Source: Actinomycetes bacterium (GTDB lineage: Bacteria > Actinomycetota > Actinomycetes > Mycobacteriales > Micromonosporaceae). Taken from it: a stretch of DNA of 11,209 nt. Location: assembly GCA_023437285.1 (NCBI GenBank), contig JAEZGP010000204.1, positions 1 through 11,209 on the forward strand, in the 5' to 3' direction. How positions within the stretch are numbered: position 1 is the stretch's first letter; the number at the start of each line of letters is the position of its first letter. This document shows positions 1 through 11,209 of this stretch, piece by piece. Below the pieces are notes generated by a model that made no database searches, was not told where the DNA came from, and worked only from the letters and a program-made list of their open reading frames with translations. The position numbers and the translations under genes were made by a program.

Positions 1-1
1 G

Positions 2-688
2 GCTGGCGCCGGAGCCCGACCCGGAGCCGGCGCGCGGCGCGGCGGCGGCCCGGGTCCCGGTCCGGACGTCTGGTTCGAGACGGGTCCGGGCGACAACATC
101 GATCTCGATGACCTGCTCGGTGGCATCTTCGGCAGCCGCGGCCGCCGAAGCTGGGGCCCGATAGCGGGAGCCGACCAGGAGGCGGAGCTTCCCCTCACGG
201 TCGACGAGGCATACCGGGGCGGACGCCGGCGGATCTCGCTCGACGGGCGCGACATCGACGTCACGATCCCGGCCGGGGTCGCTGACGGCCAGCGGATCCG
301 TCTGGCGGGCCAGGGTGGACAGGGCACCGACGGCGCCGCGCCGGGCGACCTCTACCTCGTCGTCCGCCTCGCGCCACACCCGCGGTACCGGGTCGACGGC
401 CGGGACATCACCGTCGACCTGCCCCTGGCGCCCTGGGAGGCGGCGCTCGGCGCGTCGGTCGCGATCGACACCCCGGGCGGCGAGGCCAAGGTGAAGGTAC
501 CGGCAGGCACGTCGTCCGGGCGGCGGCTGCGGCTGCGCGGACGGGGCCTTCCGCACCCCCGGGGTAAGCCCGGGGACCTGTACGCCGAAGCCAGGATCAT
601 CGTGCCCGCCACGCCGTCCGACGACGAGCGGCGGTTGTTCGAGCAGCTCGCGGCGGTGTCCACGTTCGACCCCAGGAGGCAGCGGTGA
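2..688 (+). CDS. dnaJ: DnaJ/CbpA-type J-protein, C-terminal part (5' end outside window)
   Basis: Co-chaperone that delivers unfolded clients to DnaK and stimulates its ATPase in the cytoplasm. The frame is open from base 2 and gives 228 visible residues; the J domain with its HPD motif would lie upstream. Residues 1-30 are a Gly/Pro-rich linker like the G/F region. Residues 60-125 form the first substrate-binding beta domain (LTVDEAYRGG, then VTIPAGVADGQRIRLAGQG). Residues 126-202 form the second (DITVDLPLAPWEAALG, VKVPAGTSSGRRLRLRGRG, then KPGDLYAEARI). There is no CxxCxGxG zinc-finger repeat, so it is the class B/CbpA kind rather than canonical zinc-binding DnaJ. The stop overlaps the GTG start of the next gene (GTGA, 685-688), indicating translational coupling. 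Whether dnaK and grpE lie upstream cannot be seen. Confidence 0.93.
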   Translation, partial: AGAGARPGAGARRGGGPGPGPDVWFETGPGDNIDLDDLLGGIFGSRGRRSWGPIAGADQEAELPLTVDEAYRGGRRRISLDGRDIDVTIPAGVADGQRIRLAGQGGQGTDGAAPGDLYLVVRLAPHPRYRVDGRDITVDLPLAPWEAALGASVAIDTPGGEAKVKVPAGTSSGRRLRLRGRGLPHPRGKPGDLYAEARIIVPATPSDDERRLFEQLAAVSTFDPRRQR

Positions 689-1026
689 GCTATCCCCTCG
701 TCCCGTCGCCCACGGCCGGCCACGGCGCGGATCTCGGGTGGCGCGACGTCGAGTCGTTCGCCCGCGCGACCCGGCTCCATCCGGACATGGTCCGCCGCCT
801 CGTGGTACTCGGGCTGCTCGAACCGCAGCGCGACCGGGCCGGCCGGCTCTGGTTCCCGCCGGCGCAGCTCGCACTGGCGGCCCGGATCCAGCGCCTGCGT
901 AGCGCGTTCGCCCTCAACTACGCCGCCGTCGGGGTCGTCCTCGACCTGCTCGATCGCGTTACCGAGCTGGAACGCGAGCTGCGGATGGCGCCACCAAGAC
1001 CCGCCGGAGGCCGGCAATGGACATGA
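685..1026 (+). CDS. cbpM: MerR-like chaperone modulator, CbpM type
   Basis: A 113-aa protein starting with GTG at 685, preceded by a strong Shine-Dalgarno AGGAGG at 674-679. Residues about 12-50 have the MerR/CbpM helix-turn-helix form ([21 protein letters not shown], then [15 protein letters not shown]). A helical tail follows in which the segment around [16 protein letters not shown] and the heptad-like ELERELR match the CbpM pattern. In E. coli CbpM binds the J domain of CbpA and inhibits it. In many actinobacteria the same operon slot, after dnaJ, holds the repressor HspR, a relative with a similar fold. The lack of the usual HspR recognition-helix wording (TLRQYD) and the LDLL tail favour CbpM, but a DNA-binding role is not excluded. 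The stop codon lies 10 nt inside the clpB start. Confidence 0.75.
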
Positions 1027-3641
1027 ACCGCCTGACCCAGAAGTCGCAGGAGGCCCTGCACGACGCGCAGACCAAGGCGCTGCGCTACGGGCACACCGAG
1101 GTCGACGGGGAACATCTGTTGCTGGCGCTGCTCGACCAGCCCGAGGGCCTGGTCCCCCGGCTGCTCGACACGGCCGGCACCGATCCCGACAAGCTGCGCG
1201 CGCGGCTGGAGGACGAGCTGGGCCGCCGCCCCCGGGTCAGCGGACCGGGTGCCGCACCCGGCCAGGTCTACGTGACCCAGCGCCTGTCCCGGTTGTTCGA
1301 CGCCGCCGAGCGGGAAGCGAAGCGACTCAAGGACGAGTACGTGTCGGTTGAGCACCTGGTGATGGCATTGCTCGAGGAGGGCTCGGCAACGGCCGCCGGG
1401 CGGCTGCTGCAGGAGGACCAGGAGCTGAACCGCCAGCGTTTCCTGGAGGCGTTGACCGGGATCCGCGGCAACCAGCGGGTCACGTCCGCGATGCCGGAGG
1501 TCGCGTACGAGGCGCTGTCCAAGTACGGCCGGGACCTGGTCGCCGACGCGGCCGCCGGAAAGCTGGACCCGGTCATCGGGCGCGACAGCGAGATCCGGCG
1601 GGTGGTGCAGCTGCTGTCCCGCAAGACGAAGAACAACCCGGTCCTCATCGGCGATCCGGGCGTCGGTAAGACCGCGATCGTGGAAGGGCTGGCCCAGCGG
1701 ATCACCCGCGGCGACGTGCCCGAGGGCCTGCGCGACAAGGTCATCTTCGCGCTGGACATGGGTTCGTTGGTGGCCGGGGCCAAGTACCGGGGCGAGTTCG
1801 AGGAACGGCTCAAGGCGGTACTGGCCGAGGTGCGCGCCGCCGAGGGTCGGATCCTGCTGTTCGTGGATGAGCTGCACACCGTCGTCGGCGCCGGGGCGAC
1901 CGAGGGCTCGATGGACGCGGGCAACATGCTCAAGCCGATGCTCGCCCGAGGCGAGCTGCACATGATCGGCGCGACGACCATCGACGAGTACCGCAAGAAC
2001 ATCGAGAAGGACGCCGCGCTGGAGCGGCGGTTCCAACCGGTGCTCGTGGAGGAGCCGTCCGAGGAGGACGCCATCTCGATCCTGCGCGGGCTGCGGGAAC
2101 GCCTGGAGGTCTTCCACGGCGTGAAGATCATCGACAACGCGCTCGTGTCCGCTGTAGTGCTCAGCCACCGGTACATCTCCGACCGATTCCTGCCCGACAA
2201 AGCCATCGACCTGGTCGACGAGGCATGCGCGATGCTGCGCACCGAGATCGACTCGATGCCGTCCGAGCTGGACGAGCTGAGCCGGCGGGTGACCCGGCTG
2301 GAGATCGAGGACGCCGCGCTCTCCAAAGAGGACGACCCGGCGTCGAAGGAGCGGCTGGACCAACTGCGCCGGGAACTGGCCGACCTGCGCGCGGAGGCCG
2401 ACGCGCTGCGTGCCCAATGGGACGCCGAACGCCAGGCACTCAAGCGGGTGCAGGAGCTGCGCCAGGAGATCGAGCAGGTCCGCCACGAGGCGGAGGAGGC
2501 GCAGCACCGGTACGACCTCAACCAGGCCGCGGAACTGCGCCACGGCCGGCTGCCCGAGCTGGAACGCCGGCTGGAATCCGAGGAGCAACGACTGTCGGCC
2601 AAGCAGGGCGGCCAGCGGCTGCTGCGTGAGGTGGTCACCGAGGAGGAGATCGCCGACGTCGTGTCCCGCTGGACCGGCATCCCGGTCGCCCGCCTCACGG
2701 AGGGCGAGCGGGAGAAGCTGCTGCGGCTGGACGAGATCCTCCACGAGCGCGTGATCGGCCAGGACGAGGCCGTGCAACTGGTGGCCGACGCCATCATCCG
2801 CGCCCGGTCCGGCATCAAGGACCCGCGCCGACCGATCGGATCGTTCATCTTCCTCGGGCCGACCGGGGTCGGCAAGACCGAACTGGCCAGAACGCTGGCC
2901 GCGGCGCTGTTCGACACCGAGGAGAACATCGTTCGCCTCGACATGAGCGAATACCAGGAGCGGCACACGGTCAGCCGGCTCGTCGGGGCGCCGCCCGGCT
3001 ACGTCGGATACGAGGAGGGCGGGCAGCTCACCGAGGCGGTACGCCGCAAGCCGTACTCGGTCGTGCTGTTCGACGAGATCGAAAAGGCGCACGCGGACGT
3101 GTTCAACACCCTGCTCCAGGTCCTCGACGACGGCCGCCTCACCGACGCACAGGGCCGCACCGTCAACTTCCGCAACACCGTGATCATCATGACCTCGAAC
3201 ATCGGGTCGGCGTACCTCCTTGACGGCGTCACCGCCGACGGCGAGATCACGGAGGAGGCCCGCGGCGCGGTGCTGGGCGAGCTGCGCGCGCAGTTCCGCC
3301 CCGAGTTCCTCAACCGCGTCGACGACACCGTGCTCTTCAAGCCGCTGACCGAGGCCGAGATCGAGCTCATCGTCGAGCTCATGTTCGCCGACGTCCGCGC
3401 TCGCCTGGCCGAGCGGCGGATGCGGCTGGAGCTGACCCCGGAGGCCGGCCGGTTCATCGCCAAGCGCGGCTACGACCCGGTGTACGGCGCGCGGCCGCTG
3501 CGCCGCTTCATCGCCCGCGAGGTCGAGACGCGCATCGGCCGGGCACTGCTGGAGGGAGAGGTCCTCGACGGCGCGCTGATCCGGGTCGACGTCGTGGGTG
3601 ATGAGCTGACGGTCACCTACGAGAACTCCCCCGAGGCGTGA
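1017..3641 (+). CDS. clpB: ATP-dependent disaggregase ClpB
   Basis: Hexameric AAA+ unfoldase that works with DnaK/DnaJ to pull polypeptides out of aggregates through its central pore. It has 874 aa, near the usual 850-880. Residues 1-145 hold two Clp_N repeats. NBD1 has Walker A GDPGVGKT at 212-219, Walker B ending D284-E285, and an ERRF arginine-finger segment at 336-339. Residues about 405-525 are the long charged coiled coil (M domain) that separates ClpB from ClpA and ClpC. NBD2 has Walker A GPTGVGKT at 614-621 and Walker B LFDEIEKA with D686-E687, then the C-terminal D2-small domain. All key ATPase residues are present. ATG 1017 is preferred over ATG 1023 because GGAGG at 1006-1010 lies 6 nt from it. 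The start overlaps the cbpM stop, so the genes are co-transcribed and coupled. Any heat-shock promoter must lie upstream of the window. Confidence 0.98.
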
Positions 3642-3673
3642 CGTGGCGAGGCGAGATCGTGCATGTGTTGGTC

Positions 3674-3707
3674 GCGGTGCGGGCAGCACAACGGCCGCCC
3701 GCACCGC
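3674..3707. terminator. Strong hairpin between convergent operons, likely bidirectional terminator
   Basis: GCGGTGCGGGC (3674-3684) pairs perfectly over 11 bp with GCCCGCACCGC (3697-3707) around a 12-nt loop. It sits 33 nt after the clpB stop and 47 nt past the end of the minus-strand micro-peptide operon, so it can end both transcripts. Neither side has a clear U-run, which is common for terminators in high-GC actinobacteria. Confidence 0.7.
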
Positions 3708-3753
3708 CTGTCGACACGAAGGGATCAGCCATTCCGATCGTGCACCGCGCTAC

Positions 3754-3837
3754 TCAGCCCCCGTGCTCGTGCGGTGCGCCGATCGTGTAGAGCAGGGTGG
3801 CCAACGAGGTCAGCGCCAGCAGGATGCGGACTCTCAT
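3754..3837 (-). CDS. Micro-ORF 2: 27-aa hydrophobic peptide with LLYTIGAP motif
   Basis: A 27-codon ORF on the minus strand that starts with ATG at 3837. It begins MRVRILLALTS, continues SLATLLYTIGAP and ends HEHGG: two arginines near the N-terminus, a hydrophobic core of about 15 residues, then a short polar histidine-rich tail. This is the shape of a very small secreted or membrane-inserted peptide. GGAGGG (3850-3855 on the plus strand, read as complement) lies 12 nt upstream, and the start is 5 nt after the stop of micro-ORF 1. Its last two thirds closely match micro-ORF 1, including LLYTIGAP. A longer frame beginning with GTG at 3957 exists, but it would overlap micro-ORF 1 throughout. 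I know of no named family. It could be a signalling peptide precursor or a single-span membrane micro-protein. Confidence 0.6.
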   Translation of the reverse strand: MRVRILLALTSLATLLYTIGAPHEHGG

Positions 3838-3884
3838 GATGGTTAGCTTCCCTCCGTCATAGGTGCGCCGATGGTGTAGAGCAG
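3773..3884. repeat. Imperfect 23-bp direct repeat inside the two micro-ORFs
   Basis: The 23-bp copies at 3773-3795 and 3862-3884 differ at one base. On the minus strand each encodes the end of the hydrophobic core and YTIGAP. The one difference falls in the third position of the Thr codon (ACC versus ACG) and is silent. The copies are 89 bp apart, so they are read in different frames, each in the frame of its own micro-ORF. Confidence 0.85.
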
Positions 3885-3950
3885 CAGGGCCAGCGACGCC
3901 AACATGAGCATCGCGTGGGCGGCCCGCCGCGAGATAACGGCCAGGGTCAT
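3843..3950 (-). CDS. Micro-ORF 1: 35-aa hydrophobic peptide with LLYTIGAP motif
   Basis: A 35-codon ORF on the minus strand starting with ATG at 3950. It begins MTLAVISRRAAHAMLM, continues LASLALLLYTIGAP and ends MTEGS. Two arginines at positions 8-9 precede a hydrophobic core of about 18 residues, so it resembles an uncleaved or barely cleavable signal sequence with a tiny tail. Its ribosome site is near-perfect: GGAGGTG (complement of 3955-3961), within the last codons of the DUF5317 gene. Its ATG overlaps that gene's TGA (ATGA, 3947-3950), so the two are translationally coupled. The sequence is related to micro-ORF 2 just downstream, so the pair looks like a tandem duplication kept as two coding units. 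No family is recognised. A pheromone-like or membrane-regulatory role is possible and untested. Confidence 0.7.
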   Translation of the reverse strand: MTLAVISRRAAHAMLMLASLALLLYTIGAPMTEGS

Positions 3951-4528
3951 GTTTCACCTCCTTTGCTGGGCTGGAGTTGCGGATCGGGCTGGTCGCGGCG
4001 GCGGCGCATCGCGAGCGCCGTCAAGGCGACCGTCCCGGCGCCGATGAGCACGTCGCCGGTACTGACGACCTTCTGCAGCGGTGCGACCGGGATCGTGTCG
4101 CCGAGCAGCGCCAGCCGGGTGTCACCGTGCGCGGGTTCGTTCTTGGGCGTGGTGAGGTCCGGCCGCAGTCCGACGGCTTCGGCCACGGCCGGCTCGTACG
4201 GCATGCGGCCGTTGAGAGCTATGGTCAGTCCGTTGGCCAGCGCACCCACGGTGATCGCGACGCCGGCGATACGGATCGCGGCCGGCCAGGCGGCCAGGTT
4301 TACGGCCAACCACCACAGGACCAGGCCGAACACGATGACCAATGTGGCTGGCTGCCGCAGCGCGGCCACGTAGTACTGGCCCGCCTGCACGATGGCGGCC
4401 AGCCACAGCAGCCACAGCTTCGACAGTCGGACGTTGCGCAGCCCGGCCAGTCGACCTCCGCAGGCATAGCCGGCTGCGACACCCACCACCGGCGGTGCGA
4501 CGAGCAGGATCAGACTGTTGATTGACAT
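3947..4528 (-). CDS. DUF5317 family integral membrane protein
   Basis: A 193-aa membrane protein of unknown function. Segments at about residues 4-25, 36-58, 61-82, 84-106 and 156-175 are hydrophobic enough to span the membrane. Features I associate with DUF5317 are the NGLTIALNGRMP block at about 99-110 and LLGDTIPV followed by VVSTGDVLIGAG at about 141-165. The C-terminus is RRRR followed by a hydrophilic tail. I chose ATG 4528, just after a GGTGGTGG purine-rich site. An in-frame ATG at 4552 would add eight residues (MERSHGGG) but has a poor site. The longer open frame up to 4852 runs into the divergent regulator gene and is spurious. The final codons carry the ribosome site of micro-ORF 1. 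Its place at the head of an operon with two hydrophobic micro-peptides suggests a role in their insertion, processing, export or sensing; this is inference. Confidence 0.85.
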   Translation of the reverse strand: MSINSLILLVAPPVVGVAAGYACGGRLAGLRNVRLSKLWLLWLAAIVQAGQYYVAALRQPATLVIVFGLVLWWLAVNLAAWPAAIRIAGVAITVGALANGLTIALNGRMPYEPAVAEAVGLRPDLTTPKNEPAHGDTRLALLGDTIPVAPLQKVVSTGDVLIGAGTVALTALAMRRRRDQPDPQLQPSKGGET

Positions 4529-4648
4529 TCCACCACCGTGGGACCGCTCCATCCTTTGCGTACGTCGATGTTGCGCCCCGGCGCTATGTCGCAGGCTTGT
4601 GGTTTTCTTAGCGAGCACCGACGGCTGTCCTGATGCATGGGGGCGGGG
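4529..4648. promoter_or_regulatory. Divergent promoter region with 26-bp imperfect palindrome (4566-4591)
   Basis: These 120 bp separate the DUF5317 operon from the regulator gene and must hold both promoters. A palindrome at 4566-4591 has arms CGATGTTGCGCC and GGCGCTATGTCG around CC; 9 of 12 positions pair, with a perfect GCGCC-CC-GGCGC core at 4573-4584. It lies close to the midpoint (about 4588), as expected for one operator controlling both directions. No convincing -35/-10 pair stands out on either strand, and I did not find the 11- or 22-bp-spaced heptamers typical of SARP targets. Confidence 0.5.
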
Positions 4649-7423
4649 ATGGAGATTAGGCTGCTCGGGCCGGTCGAGCTGTGGGCCGCGGGGAGTCGGG
4701 TGGACCTCGGCCCGCCGCAGCGCCACGCGGTGCTCGCCGCGCTGGCCGTCGACGCGGGGCAGCCGGTGCCGACCGAGACGTTGATTGACCGCGTCTGGGG
4801 TGAGCGACCTCCGGCTCAGGTGCGCTCGGCCGTGCACGCCAACGTCACCCACCTACGTCGACTGCTCATGTTGGCCGGAGGGACGACGGGCGGGCGTCCC
4901 CTGGTACGCGAATCCGGCGGCTACCTGCTGCGACTTGATCCGCATCAGACTGATCTGCACCGGTTCCGGACCCTGGCGTCGCGTGCCCGGGACCGCCGGT
5001 GCCCCGATGAGGAACGGGCGTCCATGCTGCGCCAGGCACTCGAGCTGTGGCGGGGCCCGGCCCTGACCGGAGTGGCCGGGGACTGGCCGGCTCGCACCCG
5101 GGTCCGGTGGAGCGTGGAGCGGCTGGACGCGGCTGTCGCCTGGGCCGACGCTGAGCTGGTTCTCGGCCGGTACGACCAGATCATCAGCGCGATGCGGGCG
5201 TTGCTGCCCGAGTTCCCGTTGGCGGAGCCCCTCGCGGTCGTGTTGATGCGAGCGCTCTGCGCCGCCGGCCGCAATGCGGAGGCTCTCGAGTGCTATGCGG
5301 CGACCCGGGCCCGGCTTGCCGACGAGCTGGGTGCCGAACCCGGCCCCGAACTCCGCGCGGCGCACGTGGCGATCCTGCGCGGCGAGGTGGGTCCGACGGT
5401 GCCGCGGCCCGCGCCGGTCACGGTGCCCGCCCTGCTGCCGATGGACGTTCGCGGCTTCACCGGCCGTGGTCGGGAGCTCGCCGCGCTCGATGCGACGCGC
5501 GCCCTGACCAGTGCGCACCCGACCGCCGTGATCGTCTCGGTCGTGTCGGGTCCGCCGGGAGTGGGCAAGACGGCACTGGCTCTGCACTGGGCTCACCGGG
5601 TTGTCGACCGCTTCCCGGACGGCCAGCTGTATGTCAACCTGCGCGGCTTCGATCCCGGTGCCGCACCGAGGACTCCCACCGATGCGGTGCGGGCGTTCCT
5701 GGACGCGTTGGGTGTCGCGCCGCAGGCGGTGCCGGGCGACCCCACGGCGCGCATCGGCCTGTACCGCAGCCTGCTCGCTGGTAGACGAATGCTGTTGGTG
5801 CTGGACAACGCCCGCGATGCCGAGCAGGTCCGTCCGCTGCTGCCCGGCGCGCCGGGCTGCTTCGCCGTGGTCACCAGCCGCAGCGGGCTGTCCAGCCTGG
5901 TGGCCGCGGACGGCGCCTACCCGCTCGCCGTCGAGGCACTCAGCCATGACGACGCGCGGGAACTCCTGGCTCACCGCATCGGATCGGCCCGCACCGCGCG
6001 CGAACCCGACGCGGTCGCCGAGATCGTCGACCGGTGCGCCGGGCTCCCGCTCGCGTTGGCCATCATCGCCGCCCGGGCCGCTACCCAGCCGGGCCTGTCC
6101 CTCGCCGACCTGGCCAGCGACCTGCGCGACGGGGACCGGCTGGGCGTCCTGTCCACCGGCGACGCGAGTACGGATGTGCGTTCGGTCTTCTCCTGGTCGT
6201 ACCGGGCGCTGAGCCCGACCGCAGCGCGGCTGTTCCGCCTGCTGGGGCGCCACCCCGTGCCCGAGTTCTCCACGGCTGCGGCCGCAAGCCTGCTGGGCAT
6301 CGCACCGGCGCGGGTCGGCCCGGTCCTGACCGAACTGACCCGGACGCATCTGGTGAGCGAGTACACCCGCGGCCGGTACCAGATGCATGACCTTCTCCAC
6401 GAGTACGCCTTCCACCTGGCGCTCGACGACGAGGAGGCGGACACCGCGACCCGCCGGATGCTGGATCACTACCTGCACACCGCCCGCGCCGCGGACCGCC
6501 TGCTCGACCCGGCCCGCGACCCGGACCCCCTCGACCCCCCGCCCGCGGAAGTCACCGTCGATCCGCCCGCCGACCACGCCGCGGCGCTGCGGTGGTTCAC
6601 CGCCGAGCATCGCGTGCTACTCGCCGCCGTCGACCTCGCGGCCCGCGCGGGCTTCGACGCCCACGTCCGGCAGCTCGCCGACGCGGTGGCGACGTTCATG
6701 TACCGGCAGGGAATGTGGCACGACCAGATCACGGCCCAGCGCCACGCGCTGCGCGTGGCGCAGCGGTCCGCCGACATGCCCGGGCGGGGGTCCGCCCACG
6801 TCCACCTCGCCCGTACCCTCATCCGGCTCAGCGAGTACGACGAGGCCGAGACCCACCTGCGCGCGGCGATGGAGTTGTATCGACAACAGGGTGACCTTGC
6901 CGGGCAGGCCCAGACGCACCACTACCTCGGTTCGCTGCGCCAGCACCAGGGCCGCTGCTGTGAAGCGCTTGACCATGCGCGACGGGCGGTGGCCATCTGC
7001 CGGGCGAACGGGATGCGGTTCGGGCTGGGCCACGCGCTGAACGCCGTGAGCTGGTTCCACGTCCTGCTGGGCGACCACCACGACGCGCTCGCCCCTGGCC
7101 GGGAGGCGATCGAGGTGTCCCAGGACCTCGGCGACCGGGCCGGGCAGGCCAACGCCTGGGACACCGTCGGGTACGCCCATCACCACCTCGGCGACGACGC
7201 GGCCGCGGTGGAGGGCTTCCAACGGGCCATCGGCCTGTACCACGACCTGGGCGAGCGGTACTACGGATCGATTGCGTTGACCCACCTCGCCGAGCGGCAC
7301 CGTGCCGCGGGCCGCCCGGCCGACGCCCGCGACGCGTACCGACGGGCCCTTGTCCTCCTCGATGAACTCGCCCATCCGGACAGCGACCGGGTCCGCACCG
7401 AACTGCTCAACCTCGGTGTATGA
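4649..7423 (+). CDS. BTAD/NB-ARC/TPR transcriptional regulator (large SARP, AfsR-like)
   Basis: A 924-aa cytoplasmic regulator of the AfsR type. Residues 1-95 are an OmpR-type winged helix (MEIRLLGPVELW, then LIDRVWGERPP and ANVTHLRRLL). Residues about 100-245 are the bacterial transcriptional activator domain (BTAD) ending in ADELGAEPGPELR. The NB-ARC ATPase follows from about 268: FTGRGREL, Walker A GPPGVGKTA at 301-309, Walker B MLLVLDN with D386, GLPLALAI near 465 and the MHD motif at 579-581 (MHDLLHEYA). Residues about 664-920 contain five or six TPR repeats with a period near 40. NB-ARC proteins of this class act as nucleotide switches whose TPRs sense a ligand or partner. I start it at ATG 4649, after GGGGG at 4639-4643, not at ATG 4637, which lacks a ribosome site. 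There is no biosynthetic cluster beside it; the divergent DUF5317/micro-peptide operon is the obvious candidate target. Confidence 0.95.
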   Translation: MEIRLLGPVELWAAGSRVDLGPPQRHAVLAALAVDAGQPVPTETLIDRVWGERPPAQVRSAVHANVTHLRRLLMLAGGTTGGRPLVRESGGYLLRLDPHQTDLHRFRTLASRARDRRCPDEERASMLRQALELWRGPALTGVAGDWPARTRVRWSVERLDAAVAWADAELVLGRYDQIISAMRALLPEFPLAEPLAVVLMRALCAAGRNAEALECYAATRARLADELGAEPGPELRAAHVAILRGEVGPTVPRPAPVTVPALLPMDVRGFTGRGRELAALDATRALTSAHPTAVIVSVVSGPPGVGKTALALHWAHRVVDRFPDGQLYVNLRGFDPGAAPRTPTDAVRAFLDALGVAPQAVPGDPTARIGLYRSLLAGRRMLLVLDNARDAEQVRPLLPGAPGCFAVVTSRSGLSSLVAADGAYPLAVEALSHDDARELLAHRIGSARTAREPDAVAEIVDRCAGLPLALAIIAARAATQPGLSLADLASDLRDGDRLGVLSTGDASTDVRSVFSWSYRALSPTAARLFRLLGRHPVPEFSTAAAASLLGIAPARVGPVLTELTRTHLVSEYTRGRYQMHDLLHEYAFHLALDDEEADTATRRMLDHYLHTARAADRLLDPARDPDPLDPPPAEVTVDPPADHAAALRWFTAEHRVLLAAVDLAARAGFDAHVRQLADAVATFMYRQGMWHDQITAQRHALRVAQRSADMPGRGSAHVHLARTLIRLSEYDEAETHLRAAMELYRQQGDLAGQAQTHHYLGSLRQHQGRCCEALDHARRAVAICRANGMRFGLGHALNAVSWFHVLLGDHHDALAPGREAIEVSQDLGDRAGQANAWDTVGYAHHHLGDDAAAVEGFQRAIGLYHDLGERYYGSIALTHLAERHRAAGRPADARDAYRRALVLLDELAHPDSDRVRTELLNLGV

Positions 7424-7437
7424 GCCATGCGTCAATT

Positions 7438-7475
7438 AGCGGTGGGTGCCCCGCTGGCCACGTCGTCAAGCGACG
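7438..7475 (+). terminator. Two small hairpins after the regulator gene, possible terminator
   Basis: Fifteen nt after the stop, AGCGG (7438-7442) can pair with CCGCT (7451-7455). Just beyond it, CGTCG (7461-7465) can pair with CGACG (7471-7475) around a 5-nt loop. The stems are only 5 bp and no U-run follows, so this is a weak candidate. Confidence 0.3.
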
Positions 7476-7560
7476 CGGAAATGGTCGAGATCGGGTGGCA
7501 GGCTCATGCCGTGGCCGGGCGGTCGATACCCCGCGTTTCGGCCCGACCACCGGGGCAGCA

Positions 7561-7612
7561 GGCATTAAGTAAGTCAATGCATCATGAATCAGTAACAATA
7601 TGAATATTAGAC
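7561..7612. promoter_or_regulatory. AT-rich leader upstream of darTG
   Basis: The stretch 7424-7729 has no convincing gene. Within it, 7561-7610 is only about 30 percent G+C (15 of 50 bases), against roughly 70 percent around it. It contains an AATAT-GA-ATATT inverted repeat at 7597-7608 and the short palindromes ATGCAT and TCATGA. It lies about 120 nt before the darT start, a plausible place for the darTG promoter and for autoregulation, or it is a trace of transferred DNA. I could not pick a firm -35/-10 pair. Confidence 0.45.
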
Positions 7613-7729
7613 CAGAACGGCACCACCGGCTCCTGCGCGCCTTGGCATGACCCGTCGCTGGAGTCTGCGACACTATGCGCCGAGCGCAGCGCCGCCAGGG
7701 CGCTTTGACGGCAGGTCCGAGGAGCGGCG

Positions 7730-8413
7730 ATGGCGTCACAGCTTCGCCCACCCAACCGGGCGCTGATCATGCATTTCACGCACATCGACAACATGCCGTC
7801 GATCCTGGCTGCGGGCCAACTGGTCGCCGACACCGAGGCTCAGACGGCCGGGCTGGCCACCGACGTCGGGGACGCCGGGGTCAAGGCCAGGCGACGGACC
7901 ATTTCCGTCAACTGCGGGCCGGGCGGGTACGTGGCCGACTACGTACCGTTCTACTTCGCGGAGCGATCGCCCATGATGTACCGGATCGCCTGTGATCACC
8001 GAGACGGCGTTCCGGGTCGCTATCCGGACGGCGACGACCCGCTTGTCTATCTGGTCAGTTCAGTCGACCAGGTGATGTCGGCCGGGCTTGCCTGGGTGGC
8101 GAGCGACGGCAACTGCGCGACGGCAGTGACCCGGTTCCTGGCTGAGCCTGCCGAACTGGCTGCAAGCATCGACTGGCAGCTCATGCGCCAGACCATGTGG
8201 AAGGACACACCCGAGGACCCTGATCGGACGAGACGGCGCATGGCTGAGTTCCTCATCTACCGCCGGTGTCCGCTGTCGGTCATGCTCGGGTACGTCGTGC
8301 GCACGCAGGAGCGACGCGACCAGCTGCTGGGGGCGCTGTCCGAGGCAGGCGTGGTCGGGGCATATGTTGATGTCAGACCGTCCTGGTACTACGGGGACAT
8401 GAGGCGGGGGTGA
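7730..8413 (+). CDS. darT: DarT toxin, ssDNA thymidine ADP-ribosyltransferase (DUF4433)
   Basis: Toxin that transfers ADP-ribose from NAD+ onto thymidine in single-stranded DNA, blocking replication; DarT homologues act in toxin-antitoxin modules and phage defence. It has 227 aa, close to the usual size. The family pattern runs the full length: HFTHIDNMPSILAAGQL at residues 15-31, an Arg-rich segment 54-56 where the family's catalytic Arg lies, DYVPFYFAERSPMMY at 70-84, PLVYLVSS at 104-111 and AEFLIYRRCP at 172-181 with the catalytic Glu expected at E173. A terminal SWYY completes the pattern. GAGGAG at 7719-7724 is 5 nt before ATG 7730; an in-frame ATG lies just before the HFTH motif but has no such site. 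No inactivating change is visible. The antitoxin follows 6 nt after the stop. Confidence 0.93.
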   Translation: MASQLRPPNRALIMHFTHIDNMPSILAAGQLVADTEAQTAGLATDVGDAGVKARRRTISVNCGPGGYVADYVPFYFAERSPMMYRIACDHRDGVPGRYPDGDDPLVYLVSSVDQVMSAGLAWVASDGNCATAVTRFLAEPAELAASIDWQLMRQTMWKDTPEDPDRTRRRMAEFLIYRRCPLSVMLGYVVRTQERRDQLLGALSEAGVVGAYVDVRPSWYYGDMRRG

Positions 8414-8419
8414 GGTTCC

Positions 8420-9523
8420 ATGATCATTGAAAGTGACGGGAATCTTCTTACCGCCGAGGTCGACGCCCTGGTCAACACCGTCAACACCGTCGGCGTAATG
8501 GGTAAGGGGATCGCGCTGCAGTTCAAGCGCGCCTATCCGGCCAATTACGCGTTCTACCGTGCGGCCTGCAAGGCAGGCGACGTCCGGCTCGGCGAAATGC
8601 TCCTGTTCGACACGGGTCGGCTCGGTCCGCGCCGTTTCGTGATTAATTTTCCGACCAAGGGTCACTGGAAGGCACGATCGCGACTTGACGACATCCGCAG
8701 CGGGTTGGCAGACCTGATCCGCGTCATCCGCGCCAAGAAGATTGACTCGGTGGCGGTTCCCGCCCTCGGGTGCGGCAACGGCGGGTTGGACTGGGGCGTG
8801 GTCCGCCCGATGATCGTTCAGGCGTTCGCCGAACTCCCCGAGGTTCGGGTGTTGCTCTATCCGCCTGCCGGCGCCCCCGCGCCGGAAAGCATGCCGGTAG
8901 GCACTGCTCCGCCCAGCCTGACCCGGGGCCGGGCCGTGCTGCTCGCCGCAATGCAGCGGTATCTGCAGAGCGCCTCCGCGATCGACCCGCGAGACGGGGT
9001 CAGCGAACTTGAGATCCAGAAGATCGCCTACTTCCTGCAGGTTCTCGGGCAGCCGTTGAAGCTGTCGTTCCGTCGCGCCCTGTACGGGCCGTACGCGGAG
9101 CAACTTCAGCACGTCCTACAACAGCTGGAAGGCCATTACATGGTCGGGTACGGCGACCGGTCAGGTCGCGTCCAGGATCTGCGGCCGATCCGCCTCAAGC
9201 CCGCAACGGGTGCGCAAGCAACGGCGTGGCTCGATGCCCACGACGCGGCGGCGCACGACCGAATCGATGCTCTCCTTCGGCTCGTCGACGGCTACGAGAC
9301 CCCGTACAGCATGGAATTGCTGGCCACCGTGCATTTCGCCGTGGCGTCGGACCCGGGCTCCGACGAAGACCGCCTTGTAGAGCTCGTTCGCGGGTGGAGC
9401 GGCCGAAAGGCACGGCTCTTCACAGCGGACCACATCCGACTGGCCCACGAGCGACTGCGCGCGGAGGGCCTGCTCGCTACGGATCGCTTCACGGACGTCC
9501 AACCCGGCGACTCGGCCAGGTAA
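8420..9523 (+). CDS. darG: DarG antitoxin, macrodomain ADP-ribosyl glycohydrolase
   Basis: Antitoxin that removes ADP-ribose from thymidine in DNA through its N-terminal macrodomain and blocks DarT through its C-terminal domain. It has 367 aa, full length. Residues 1-150 are the macrodomain: ALVNTVNTVGVMGKGIALQF at 16-35, NFPTKGHW at 76-83 with K80 in the position of the family's catalytic lysine, and the ADP-ribose loop GCGNGGLDW at 117-125. Residues about 170-350 form a helical domain (ELEIQKIAYFLQVLG, then RALYGPYAEQLQ) typical of the DarG toxin-binding half. NTVNT replaces the more common NTVNC, so a loop Cys is Thr here. The ribosome site overlaps the end of darT (purine run 8406-8415), giving coupled translation so that toxin and antidote are made together. 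Confidence 0.94.
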   Translation: MIIESDGNLLTAEVDALVNTVNTVGVMGKGIALQFKRAYPANYAFYRAACKAGDVRLGEMLLFDTGRLGPRRFVINFPTKGHWKARSRLDDIRSGLADLIRVIRAKKIDSVAVPALGCGNGGLDWGVVRPMIVQAFAELPEVRVLLYPPAGAPAPESMPVGTAPPSLTRGRAVLLAAMQRYLQSASAIDPRDGVSELEIQKIAYFLQVLGQPLKLSFRRALYGPYAEQLQHVLQQLEGHYMVGYGDRSGRVQDLRPIRLKPATGAQATAWLDAHDAAAHDRIDALLRLVDGYETPYSMELLATVHFAVASDPGSDEDRLVELVRGWSGRKARLFTADHIRLAHERLRAEGLLATDRFTDVQPGDSAR

Positions 9524-9543
9524 GCCGACCACAGCCGTCCCGC

Positions 9544-9588
9544 CCCGACCGCGGCCGTGCCGAATTCACGGCGGCGCCGAAGGTCGGG
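9544..9588. terminator. Nested hairpin downstream of darG
   Basis: CCCGACC (9544-9550) pairs over 7 bp with GGTCGGG (9582-9588). Inside it GCCGTG (9554-9559) pairs over 6 bp with CACGGC (9567-9572) around a 7-nt loop. It lies 20 nt after the darG stop and just beyond the end of the minus-strand GH65 remnant. It may terminate darTG transcription. No U-run is present. Confidence 0.5.
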
Positions 9589-9598
9589 TGGGGTTCGG

Positions 9599-9880
9599 TC
9601 AACGCGGACGGGGCGTTTCTGAGTACGCGGACTCGCTGGCCGCGCCTGCGAACGGCAAGTCGAAGTCGAGGTGCTGCCCGGCGGCCAGCGACCGCACGAC
9701 ACCGCCGACGTGGATGTTGATGGGCGGTGCCTGGCAGGGGCGAAGGCCGACCCGTAGCCGATGATGGTCGACGTCGATGACGACCCAGTGCTGGCGGTAG
9801 AGCACTTCGACGTGCAGGGCGCGCAGTTCGCGCGGTACAAGCGGGTGCGGGTAGAGCACGTCTGCCCGGGTCTCCAGGCC
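9599..9880 (-). pseudogene. C-terminal remnant of a GH65 family sugar phosphorylase/hydrolase
   Basis: The minus-strand frame ending at TGA 9599-9601 resembles only the small C-terminal beta domain of GH65 enzymes (maltose, trehalose or kojibiose phosphorylases and relatives). The match starts near 9880 with GLETRADVLYPHPLVPRELR, continues HVEVLYRQHWVVIDVDHHRL, then PCQAPPINIHV and SLAAGQHLDFDLP, which is where such proteins normally finish. The catalytic barrel, over 600 residues in an intact enzyme, is absent. Upstream in this frame the sequence is just the shifted frame of the hydrogenase fragment, so there is no start of its own. It looks like the 3' end of a deleted gene. A fast-evolving short gene is less likely, because the match begins abruptly at the junction. 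Confidence 0.65.
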
Positions 9881-9891
9881 GCGATCACCTC

Positions 9892-10221
9892 GCCGGTCGC
9901 GCGGTCCGCCGACCACATGCGGCTGCGTGCCGGGTGCAGCACGCTCTTCCACGACTGCGGGCCGGCGGAGTGCGCGAACGCCGCCCGGTCGGCCCGCTCG
10001 CGCAGCCGGTAGTGACCCGCCTCGGTCGCCACGCCCCAGCCGTACGGCAACTCGGCCGCCGAGCCAAGCTCAGCGAGCACGATCGCACCGTCGCGTACGG
10101 TCGGCCCCAGCACGGTGAACCCGTCGGCCCGAAGAACGTTCACCAGGGCGTCCAAGCCCGAAAGGCCCGTGACGATGGGTCGCGGTTCGACCGTCACGGC
10201 CCCCACCTCTGCGGTCGCCAT
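9892..10221 (-). pseudogene. N-terminal remnant of hydrogenase/sulfite-reductase-type iron-sulfur subunit
   Basis: From ATG 10221 (or ATG 10248) about 110 residues match the N-terminal domain of the 4Fe-4S beta subunit found in group 3b-type hydrogenase/sulfhydrogenase and anaerobic sulfite reductase complexes. The signature is GLDALVNVLRADGFTVLGPT, VRDGAIVLAELGSAAELPYG, GHYRLRERADRAAF and GPQSWKSVLHPARSRMW. Intact proteins run about 330-370 aa and carry Cys-rich ferredoxin motifs, none of which are present. After residue 110 the frame turns into low-complexity Ser/Thr/Arg sequence and then antisense of darG, while homology resumes in another frame as GH65. The gene was therefore truncated by a deletion that fused it to another gene. 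No hydrogenase catalytic subunit is nearby. Confidence 0.65.
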
Positions 10222-10248
10222 CCCCTCATCGGAGGTCGACCCCGTCAT

Positions 10249-10434
10249 GCGACATGGCGCCTTCGGCGGTGACGGCCCCGAACTCCAACAGCGAACCGCC
10301 CAGGCCCCCACGCGAGGGCTGGGTGCAGATCCGCATATTTTGAGCGTATTACCCCGATCCGACCTCCGCAGGCAAACCGGAAGCGTCACAGAGCGCAGAA
10401 GCCATCACCAACTCAGTGACGACACGGTTGGCGG
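10249..10434. other. Short non-coding stretch with AT-rich patch
   Basis: No gene is supported between the hydrogenase remnant and the small minus-strand gene. An AT-richer patch at about 10334-10356 could be the old promoter of the remnant, but no clear promoter elements can be assigned. Confidence 0.3.
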
Positions 10435-10668
10435 TCAGGGCCGCGGCGGAAGCCCCATGATCTCGTTGGCCCGAGCGTGGAACCGGTCCTGCTCGGCGGC
10501 GGATGCCTCCATGTCCGCGAAGTGTTGGTTGTAGTCGCTGGGCCCGTCCCGGTCTGGTGGCGTGGGACCGGTGACGCCGGCGGCGATCTGATCGGCAACC
10601 CATTCGTCGTGCCACTTGGCCAGTGCGCGCAGGCGTTCACGCAACTCGGGATCAATGTCGTCCGGCAT
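10435..10668 (-). CDS. Small acidic protein of unknown function (77 aa)
   Basis: A 77-aa hydrophilic protein with ATG at 10668. It opens with a charged helix-like segment (MPDDIDPELRERLRALAKWH), has a Pro/Gly-rich middle (VTGPTPPDRDGP), then a second helix rich in Ala, Glu and His and the ending GLPPRP. The amino acid mix and codon use are those of a real high-GC gene: third positions are mostly G or C, and the overlapping frames give poorer proteins. There is no Cys, membrane segment or signal peptide. The ribosome site is weak. I recognise no family. It stands alone, between the decayed gene region and the divergent P-type ATPase gene, with about 200 bp separating it from the latter. Confidence 0.6.
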   Translation of the reverse strand: MPDDIDPELRERLRALAKWHDEWVADQIAAGVTGPTPPDRDGPSDYNQHFADMEASAAEQDRFHARANEIMGLPPRP

Positions 10669-10743
10669 GCGGCGAGACTACTGCCCTGGCCCGACCGAAA
10701 TGGTCACGGTTTCGCACGCCTTCAGGACCTTAGCCTCGCCTGT

Positions 10744-10765
10744 CCGGGACGTCGGCCGCTCCCGG
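10744..10765. promoter_or_regulatory. Inverted repeat upstream of the P-type ATPase gene
   Basis: CCGGGA (10744-10749) and TCCCGG (10760-10765) form a perfect 6-bp inverted repeat around a 10-nt centre, about 105 nt before the ATPase start and 76 nt before the divergent small gene. The GGGAC plus GGCC arrangement inside it is loosely like DosR/DevR-type sites, but does not match that consensus well. It could be an operator for the divergent pair. Confidence 0.3.
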
Positions 10766-10869
10766 CGCCAAGGGAATGCGGTCGAACCTGGGGGCGGCGA
10801 CGGCAGCAGGGGGCGCGGACCAGCCCGTACGCCCGAAGTCTGCGCGATGATGGGGACGAGGTGAGTCCG

Positions 10870-11209
10870 ATGCCTGAAAGTACGGACCGGCGGCGTCGCC
10901 CACCATGGCTGCACCGCCTCGCCGACGTCGCGGTCCCGGTGCTGTTCTGGGCGTGCACGCTGCTGCTGCTCGCCGGCGTCGCGGCGTTCGCTGTGGGCGC
11001 CCGTCCGGTCGCGGTCGGGCTGTGGGTGTCGGCGACGGCGCTGGGTCTGCTCTATTCGACGGTCACGCTCGCGGACGCGGTCCGCCATCGCCGCCCGAGC
11101 GTGGATGTGATCGCCTGGCTGGCGCTCGTTGGCGCGCTCGCGGTCGGCGAGACGTTCGCCGGTGCGGTCATCGCGGTGATGCTGGCCAGCGGCGTACTGC
11201 TGGAGAACA
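10870..11209 (+). CDS. Heavy-metal P-type ATPase, N-terminal part (3' end outside window)
   Basis: The first 113 residues of an integral membrane cation pump. A short basic leader (PESTDRRRRPPWLHRL) precedes hydrophobic segments at about residues 20-42 and 47-70. Then comes RRPSVDVIAWLALVGALAVG followed by AGAVIAVMLASGVLLEN, the hallmark of the A/B helix region just before the actuator domain in heavy-metal (P1B) ATPases. There is no N-terminal CxxC metal-binding domain. The ion-binding CPx motif and phosphorylated DKTG lie beyond the window, so the metal cannot be named. I use ATG 10870 because AGGTG at 10859-10863 is 6 nt upstream; GTG 10861 is in frame but would overlap that site. Confidence 0.88.
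   Translation, partial: MPESTDRRRRPPWLHRLADVAVPVLFWACTLLLLAGVAAFAVGARPVAVGLWVSATALGLLYSTVTLADAVRHRRPSVDVIAWLALVGALAVGETFAGAVIAVMLASGVLLEN

Follow-up and report, generated by a model that had tools for sequence, protein, structure and literature searches.

Two very small open reading frames (micro-ORFs) directly behind a gene for a DUF5317 membrane protein raise the question whether such short frames are genes at all and, if so, to which of their neighbors they belong. They are located in an 11,209-nucleotide stretch of a Micromonosporaceae genome (Actinomycetes bacterium, GenBank assembly GCA_023437285.1, contig JAEZGP010000204.1, positions 1 to 11,209 of the forward strand), which is referred to as the window, and a sequence-only reading of this stretch had proposed that the micropeptides could be sensed by a large regulator encoded divergently from DUF5317 or could act on DUF5317 in the membrane. 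Judged from comparative sequence analysis, the micro-ORFs are genes under protein-level selection, which are closely linked to DUF5317 for translation. We assume, with a probability of about 0.58, that they encode predicted single-span membrane micropeptides acting as dedicated partners of the five-helix DUF5317 protein, with the regulator being incidental.

Conserved micro-ORFs behind DUF5317

The DUF5317 protein comprises 193 aa from the start codon common to its homologs (3947..4528, minus strand) and is a clear member of PF17248, as a slightly longer frame matched this profile with an E-value of 7e-16 and 59 bits versus a curated Pfam cut-off of 25. Micro-ORF 1 (3843..3950, minus strand) has 35 codons and ends in MTEGS; its ATG overlaps with the stop codon of DUF5317 (ATGA). 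Micro-ORF 2 (3754..3837, minus strand) starts five bases after the end of micro-ORF 1, has 27 codons and ends in HEHGG. Both are preceded by a putative ribosome site on the same strand, which is AAAGGAGGTGA within the final DUF5317 codons (3954..3964) for micro-ORF 1 and GGAGGGA within the final codons of micro-ORF 1 (3849..3855) for micro-ORF 2, and both encode LLYTIGAP followed by a five-residue tail. Direct reading of the sequence therefore bears out the layout described before, including the divergent position of the regulator, and both micro-ORFs are kept in relatives.

Twenty related loci were fetched via DUF5317 homology alone, and all of them contain at least one micro-ORF according to a motif regular expression and the printed frames. 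In total, the regular expression yielded 52 micro-ORFs, including the two of the window; as it demands G[AS]P, the constancy of GAP among the 52 peptides is partly built in. The first micro-ORF is located 3' of DUF5317 in 19 of the 20 loci and 5' of it in L020, and a ribosome-site match of at least four bases was found just upstream of 45 of the 52 micro-ORFs. A motif-blind search for hydrophobic ORFs of 20-50 aa with a ribosome site was positive in 15 of 16 loci picked from the 20 (the miss is L019), which belong to one DUF5317 clade, versus 0 of 38 DUF5317 loci beyond this clade. The pooled ratio of non-synonymous to synonymous differences (pN/pS) among close orthologs, uncorrected for relatedness or multiple hits, was 0.50 for micro-ORF 1 (seven loci) and 0.22 for micro-ORF 2 (eight loci). 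These data argue for genuine genes, as had been supposed, and the predicted YTIGAP-like ORFs of 25-40 codons beside DUF5317 are strongly confirmed within the clade but not outside of it.

That the conserved stretch is instead a non-coding DNA or RNA element is hardly conceivable. The tandem repetition in arrays with periods of ~105 and ~136 bp would fit such an element, but the pN/pS values are below 1, the motif residues T, G, A and P stay the same throughout a 15-copy array despite synonymous changes, most micro-ORFs have a ribosome site, and no Rfam match was found within the window. The micropeptide family did not match any NCBIfam model.

A constant body and a variable tail

The peptides share a common plan consisting of a basic N-terminus, a membrane helix and YTxGAP, followed by three variable tail residues and mostly a GG ending. 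The N-terminal side is more positive in 51 of the 52 peptides, and the C-terminal ends are GG in 37, GS in nine and others in six cases. The number of copies per locus ranges from one up to 11 in Actinacidiphila bryophytorum (nine by regular expression, 11 by profile), and the largest array, of 15 copies, is located at L051, a second DUF5317 locus of Paractinoplanes durhamensis, where 15 ORFs were also identified by eye with GAP in 15/15.

A comparison of the copies within six arrays revealed pN/pS values for the three tail residues of 0.65 (L051), 2.06 (L018), 0.90 (L078), 1.16 (L002), 3.45 (L005) and 1.46 (L004). In the same arrays the preceding helix ranged from 0.19 to 0.68 and the motif from 0.12 to 0.22, with the apparent variation of the motif lowered by the regular expressions for array selection and pN/pS, which demand it. 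The N-terminal side also showed high values (0.51-1.86), partly from aligning peptides of two lengths. The array copies compared are few and related; the L010 set was ignored due to one chance match, and L014 and L017 provided two usable copies each. On the basis of these alignments, the tail variation is a matter of either weak constraint or diversification.

We also considered the possibility that the C-terminal GG simply results from the ribosome site of the following copy, but rejected this as the sole cause. GGA GGC often encodes the final GG where it doubles as the next ribosome site, whereas GGC GGC was found in 17 of 18 copies where the site is separate (L010, L014, L017, L018), and this codon use points to a protein-level role of the final GG. 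A pN/pS of 0.98 for the last two positions in L051 counts against a strict constraint, as do the six of 52 peptides with an ending other than GG or GS.

Joint occurrence of micropeptides and DUF5317

A profile built from 50 peptides was run over genomes. Among 200 Micromonosporaceae the peptide profile was positive in 19 genomes and PF17248 in 22, and all 19 are inside the 22 (Fisher 8.6e-24); after removal of the 11 profile-building genomes, the peptide was present in 8 of 11 DUF5317-positive genomes versus 0 of 178 others (4.7e-12). The 22 genomes contain 27 DUF5317 places, each of which was read individually and has a micro-ORF. Seven places depart in motif or arrangement (L053, L066-L071), for example with LYTIAAP, VYVAVAP or LLTVGAP, and at five of these (L066, L067, L068, L070, L071) the micro-ORF is located 5' of DUF5317.

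DUF5317 was detected in five of 150 Streptomycetaceae genomes, and strong peptide matches in three, all within those five; two further weak profile matches, both located in long frames, were disregarded. The other two DUF5317 genomes are without micro-ORF; in one of them DUF5317 forms a long branch outside the clade, and in the other it is split over two frames (L123, 1969-2547, plus strand). Across 396 genomes of the phylum, DUF5317 was found in 108 and the peptide profile was positive in five, four of them weakly.

A few micro-ORFs stand alone within the fetched stretch, namely in L054 (9180-9290), L055 (9544-9654) and L074 (4277-4137), with a DUF5317 possible elsewhere in those genomes. L055 also contains a homolog of the NB-ARC/TPR regulator at 11513-13435. 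Furthermore, a lone look-alike peptide ending in LVATLGAPFKW is encoded at L109 (~1748-1831, minus strand), where the fetched 4.5 kb do not contain a DUF5317.

Small hydrophobic tandem peptides beside a membrane protein together with a patchy spread (22/200 and 5/150 genomes) would also be expected for membrane-active competition peptides, with DUF5317 protecting the producer. We regard this as unlikely, as the peptide core is strongly conserved and the solo copies lack a DUF5317 in their fetched stretch, although one may be encoded elsewhere.

One DUF5317 lineage and its features

In a DUF5317 tree with 79 rows, which was midpoint-rooted for drawing and does not include the frame-split L123, all peptide-bearing rows fall to the same side of a branch with 99/96 support. 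This side consists of 40 rows or 39 distinct loci, as L068 and L124 are one locus entered twice; all 39 loci have a micro-ORF, and G144, an apparent exception on the tree, has its micro-ORF 5' of DUF5317. The 39 rows opposite yielded no micro-ORF within the 450-800 bases covered, and contig ends truncate some of these loci; the search at L118 gave one match, which is not membrane-like. In terms of sequence evolution, a single acquisition of a micropeptide partner by one DUF5317 lineage, with retention ever since, is probable. As members outside the clade go without a peptide, the basic function of DUF5317 does not need one.

The DUF5317 model (predicted local distance difference test score 92, predicted template modeling score 0.84) contains five predicted long helices. 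The residues P12, W42 and A45 in helices 1 and 2 are specific for the clade, and an older conserved polar loop comprises N106, M109, P110, D144, S156 and D159. Two Asp residues are near-invariant and equally conserved in members without peptides. PF17248 was over the cut-off in 29 of 29 members examined, and neither the family scan of these members nor the matches listed in the structure searches pointed to a protease fold or family; the searches made also revealed no known fold or peptide family for the DUF5317-micropeptide system. In seven loci (L001-L005, L072, L081) a short ORF of 11-19 aa, out of frame and with a ribosome site, is located 32 or 41 bases 5' of the DUF5317 start; it is absent from the window.

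The invariant SxGD and GD of DUF5317 are reminiscent of signal peptidase II (LspA), which has the motif FNxAD and D. A direct hhalign comparison gave a weak match (probability 6.9%, E-value 0.005) using only the four of ten fetched LspA loci that were caught by a regular expression. PF01252 (LspA, Peptidase_A8) did not appear in the 16 families that the 29 DUF5317 members matched at E-values up to 10, and LspA was not among the matches listed in the structure searches, so that an LspA-like protease was kept as a lead only. A mobile origin was rejected: one viral-contig scan gave no relative, and the plasmid collection one record only, a chromosome-sized Nonomuraea replicon of 11.85 Mb with a micro-ORF 3' of DUF5317.

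All eight long proteins scanned (L089, L095, L096, L125, L128, L129, L132, L134) have DUF5317 fused N-terminally to MFS transporters (MFS_1, mostly also MFS_3). Three such fusion proteins are included in the tree, all outside the clade. The fusions hint at a transport role, and a possible, though less likely, alternative to the membrane partnership is that the micropeptides give rise to an extracellular signal, which DUF5317 cleaves or exports and whose tail or YTxGAP end serves as a linear pheromone sensed elsewhere. Besides the fusions, the varied tail residues in the six arrays, the Asp pair and the patchy spread would be in line with such a signal, as would the shape of the peptides: they resemble the RRNPP propeptides in having a basic end followed by a hydrophobic core and a short tail at the C-terminus, and 35 and 27 aa are within their size range of 10-100 aa, as far as described in the available part of PMC10075063. 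It speaks against a signal that the Asp pair is equally conserved in peptide-less DUF5317, that no protease was among the matches listed, and that no conserved receptor or exporter was found near the cassettes (flanking genes of 20 loci, 30 proteins scanned). A further difference to RRNPP systems is that the conserved partner of the micropeptides is a membrane protein.

A predicted membrane partnership

We favor a partnership in the membrane, in which the peptide would be oriented with its N-terminus inside and its C-terminus outside and its helix would pack on the first two DUF5317 helices at the site of P12, W42 and A45. YTxGAP would lie next to the conserved polar loop on the outer face of the membrane, and the short tail, different between copies, would face outward. 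DUF5317 might hold, activate or deliver the peptide. With the tail exposed and varied between copies, arrays would provide one partner with many tails.

Several observations weigh against this partnership. Four of the 27 Micromonosporaceae places (L067, L068, L069, L071) were recognized only afterwards with a loosened motif, the hydrophobic-ORF list or by eye, with L069 as the least certain one. In addition, the solo micro-ORFs stand apart from any DUF5317 in the fetched stretch, DUF5317 beyond the clade occurs without peptide, the three clade-specific residues may reflect mere kinship, and an ordinary subunit would not be expected in as many as 15 copies.

In small membrane subunits like KdpF and CydX, one short helix is likewise tied to a larger membrane protein; the micropeptides differ from these in forming tandem arrays of up to 15 copies, in having tails that vary and in the conserved YTxGAP at their C-terminal end. 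A polytopic membrane protein encoded next to a very small peptide gene is also known from AgrB/AgrD, where a Cys of AgrD forms a thiolactone. The arrangement of DUF5317 and its micro-ORFs is similar, but AgrB was absent from the 16 families matched by the 29 members, and Cys is present in just 2 of the 52 micropeptides.

The partnership may extend to a new peptide display or signaling unit in Actinomycetota, which we suggest only tentatively. DUF5317 would then hold or process peptides of ~27-36 aa in which a constant body of helix and YTxGAP is followed by three exposed, rapidly changing residues and usually a final GG, and a cell with an array of up to 15 tandem copies could present or release a whole set of tails. 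If tails are indeed displayed or released, this would amount to a channel of linear, genetically encoded peptides in Actinomycetota, where signals are typically small molecules made by enzymes according to the available part of PMC10075063. With these findings, a family of unknown function is recast as a two-part system whose partner can be tested, and a conserved micropeptide family is added. With one apparent gain, no observed loss and arrays of one body and varied tails, it is a good case for micropeptides becoming bound to a larger membrane protein. A literature search revealed no relevant paper on DUF5317, PF17248 or the motif strings, with supplements and most subscription papers being outside the search; two papers matched through an unrelated letter string, the papers listed in broader searches did not describe a comparable system, and the available part of a study on small ORFs in Streptomyces (PMC10654065) does not mention DUF5317.

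The regulator and other genes of the window

The regulator gene (4637..7423, plus strand) encodes 928 aa, or 924 aa if the second ATG (4649) is used, with profile matches to Trans_reg_C, BTAD, NB-ARC and TPR (TPR_12 and others). It agrees with the definition of a large SARP, that is an N-terminal SARP part, a central NB-ARC and C-terminal TPRs in ~1000 residues (available part of PMC10972967). It differs from AfsR in scoring 497 bits with the NCBIfam AfsR model, whose cut-off is 1430 bits, and in not being tied to the cassette.

The proposed link between this regulator and the micropeptides did not hold up in related loci. The genes flanking the 20 related cassettes are mostly unrelated, and 3 of the 30 flanking proteins scanned are DNA-binding regulators of other families, namely DUF2089-HTH (L003), PucR type (L013) and HTH_20 (L005). 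Besides DUF5317, the clusters recurring in at least three loci are the regulator's (five with the window) and ABC-type ATPases, a very common family (five loci). Regulator homologs were found within 8 kb in 4 of the 20 loci in three arrangements, none of them the divergent one of the window. As its neighborhood is not conserved, the regulator is, on genomic context, probably incidental to the cassette.

It is accordingly very unlikely that the adjacent BTAD/NB-ARC/TPR regulator senses the peptides, as the full module had implied. Its divergent position in the window would fit, and a weak excess of homologs near the cassettes remains, with four loci observed versus ~1.1 expected as a lower bound (nominal P 0.028, uncorrected) from a density of at least 621 matches in 19 genomes (~176 Mb). 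Moreover, the SARP NosP responds to peptidyl ligands according to a reference title in PMC10972967. On the other hand, the arrangements differ at other loci, the best listed regulator matches are located on contigs other than that of the cassette, and an alignment of the DUF5317 upstream region of the window revealed no match to those of sister loci. The RRNPP criteria in the available part of PMC10075063 are a receptor of 250-500 aa and direct adjacency to the propeptide gene; the regulator shares the TPRs of these receptors, but is much longer and is separated from the micro-ORFs by DUF5317, and its link to them is not conserved.

The window also contains, on the plus strand, the end of dnaJ, an HspR-like gene and clpB, which were named from reading of the translations alone. 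A DarT/DarG toxin-antitoxin pair (7730-9523, plus strand), with matches above the NCBIfam cut-offs, is located directly 3' of the regulator.

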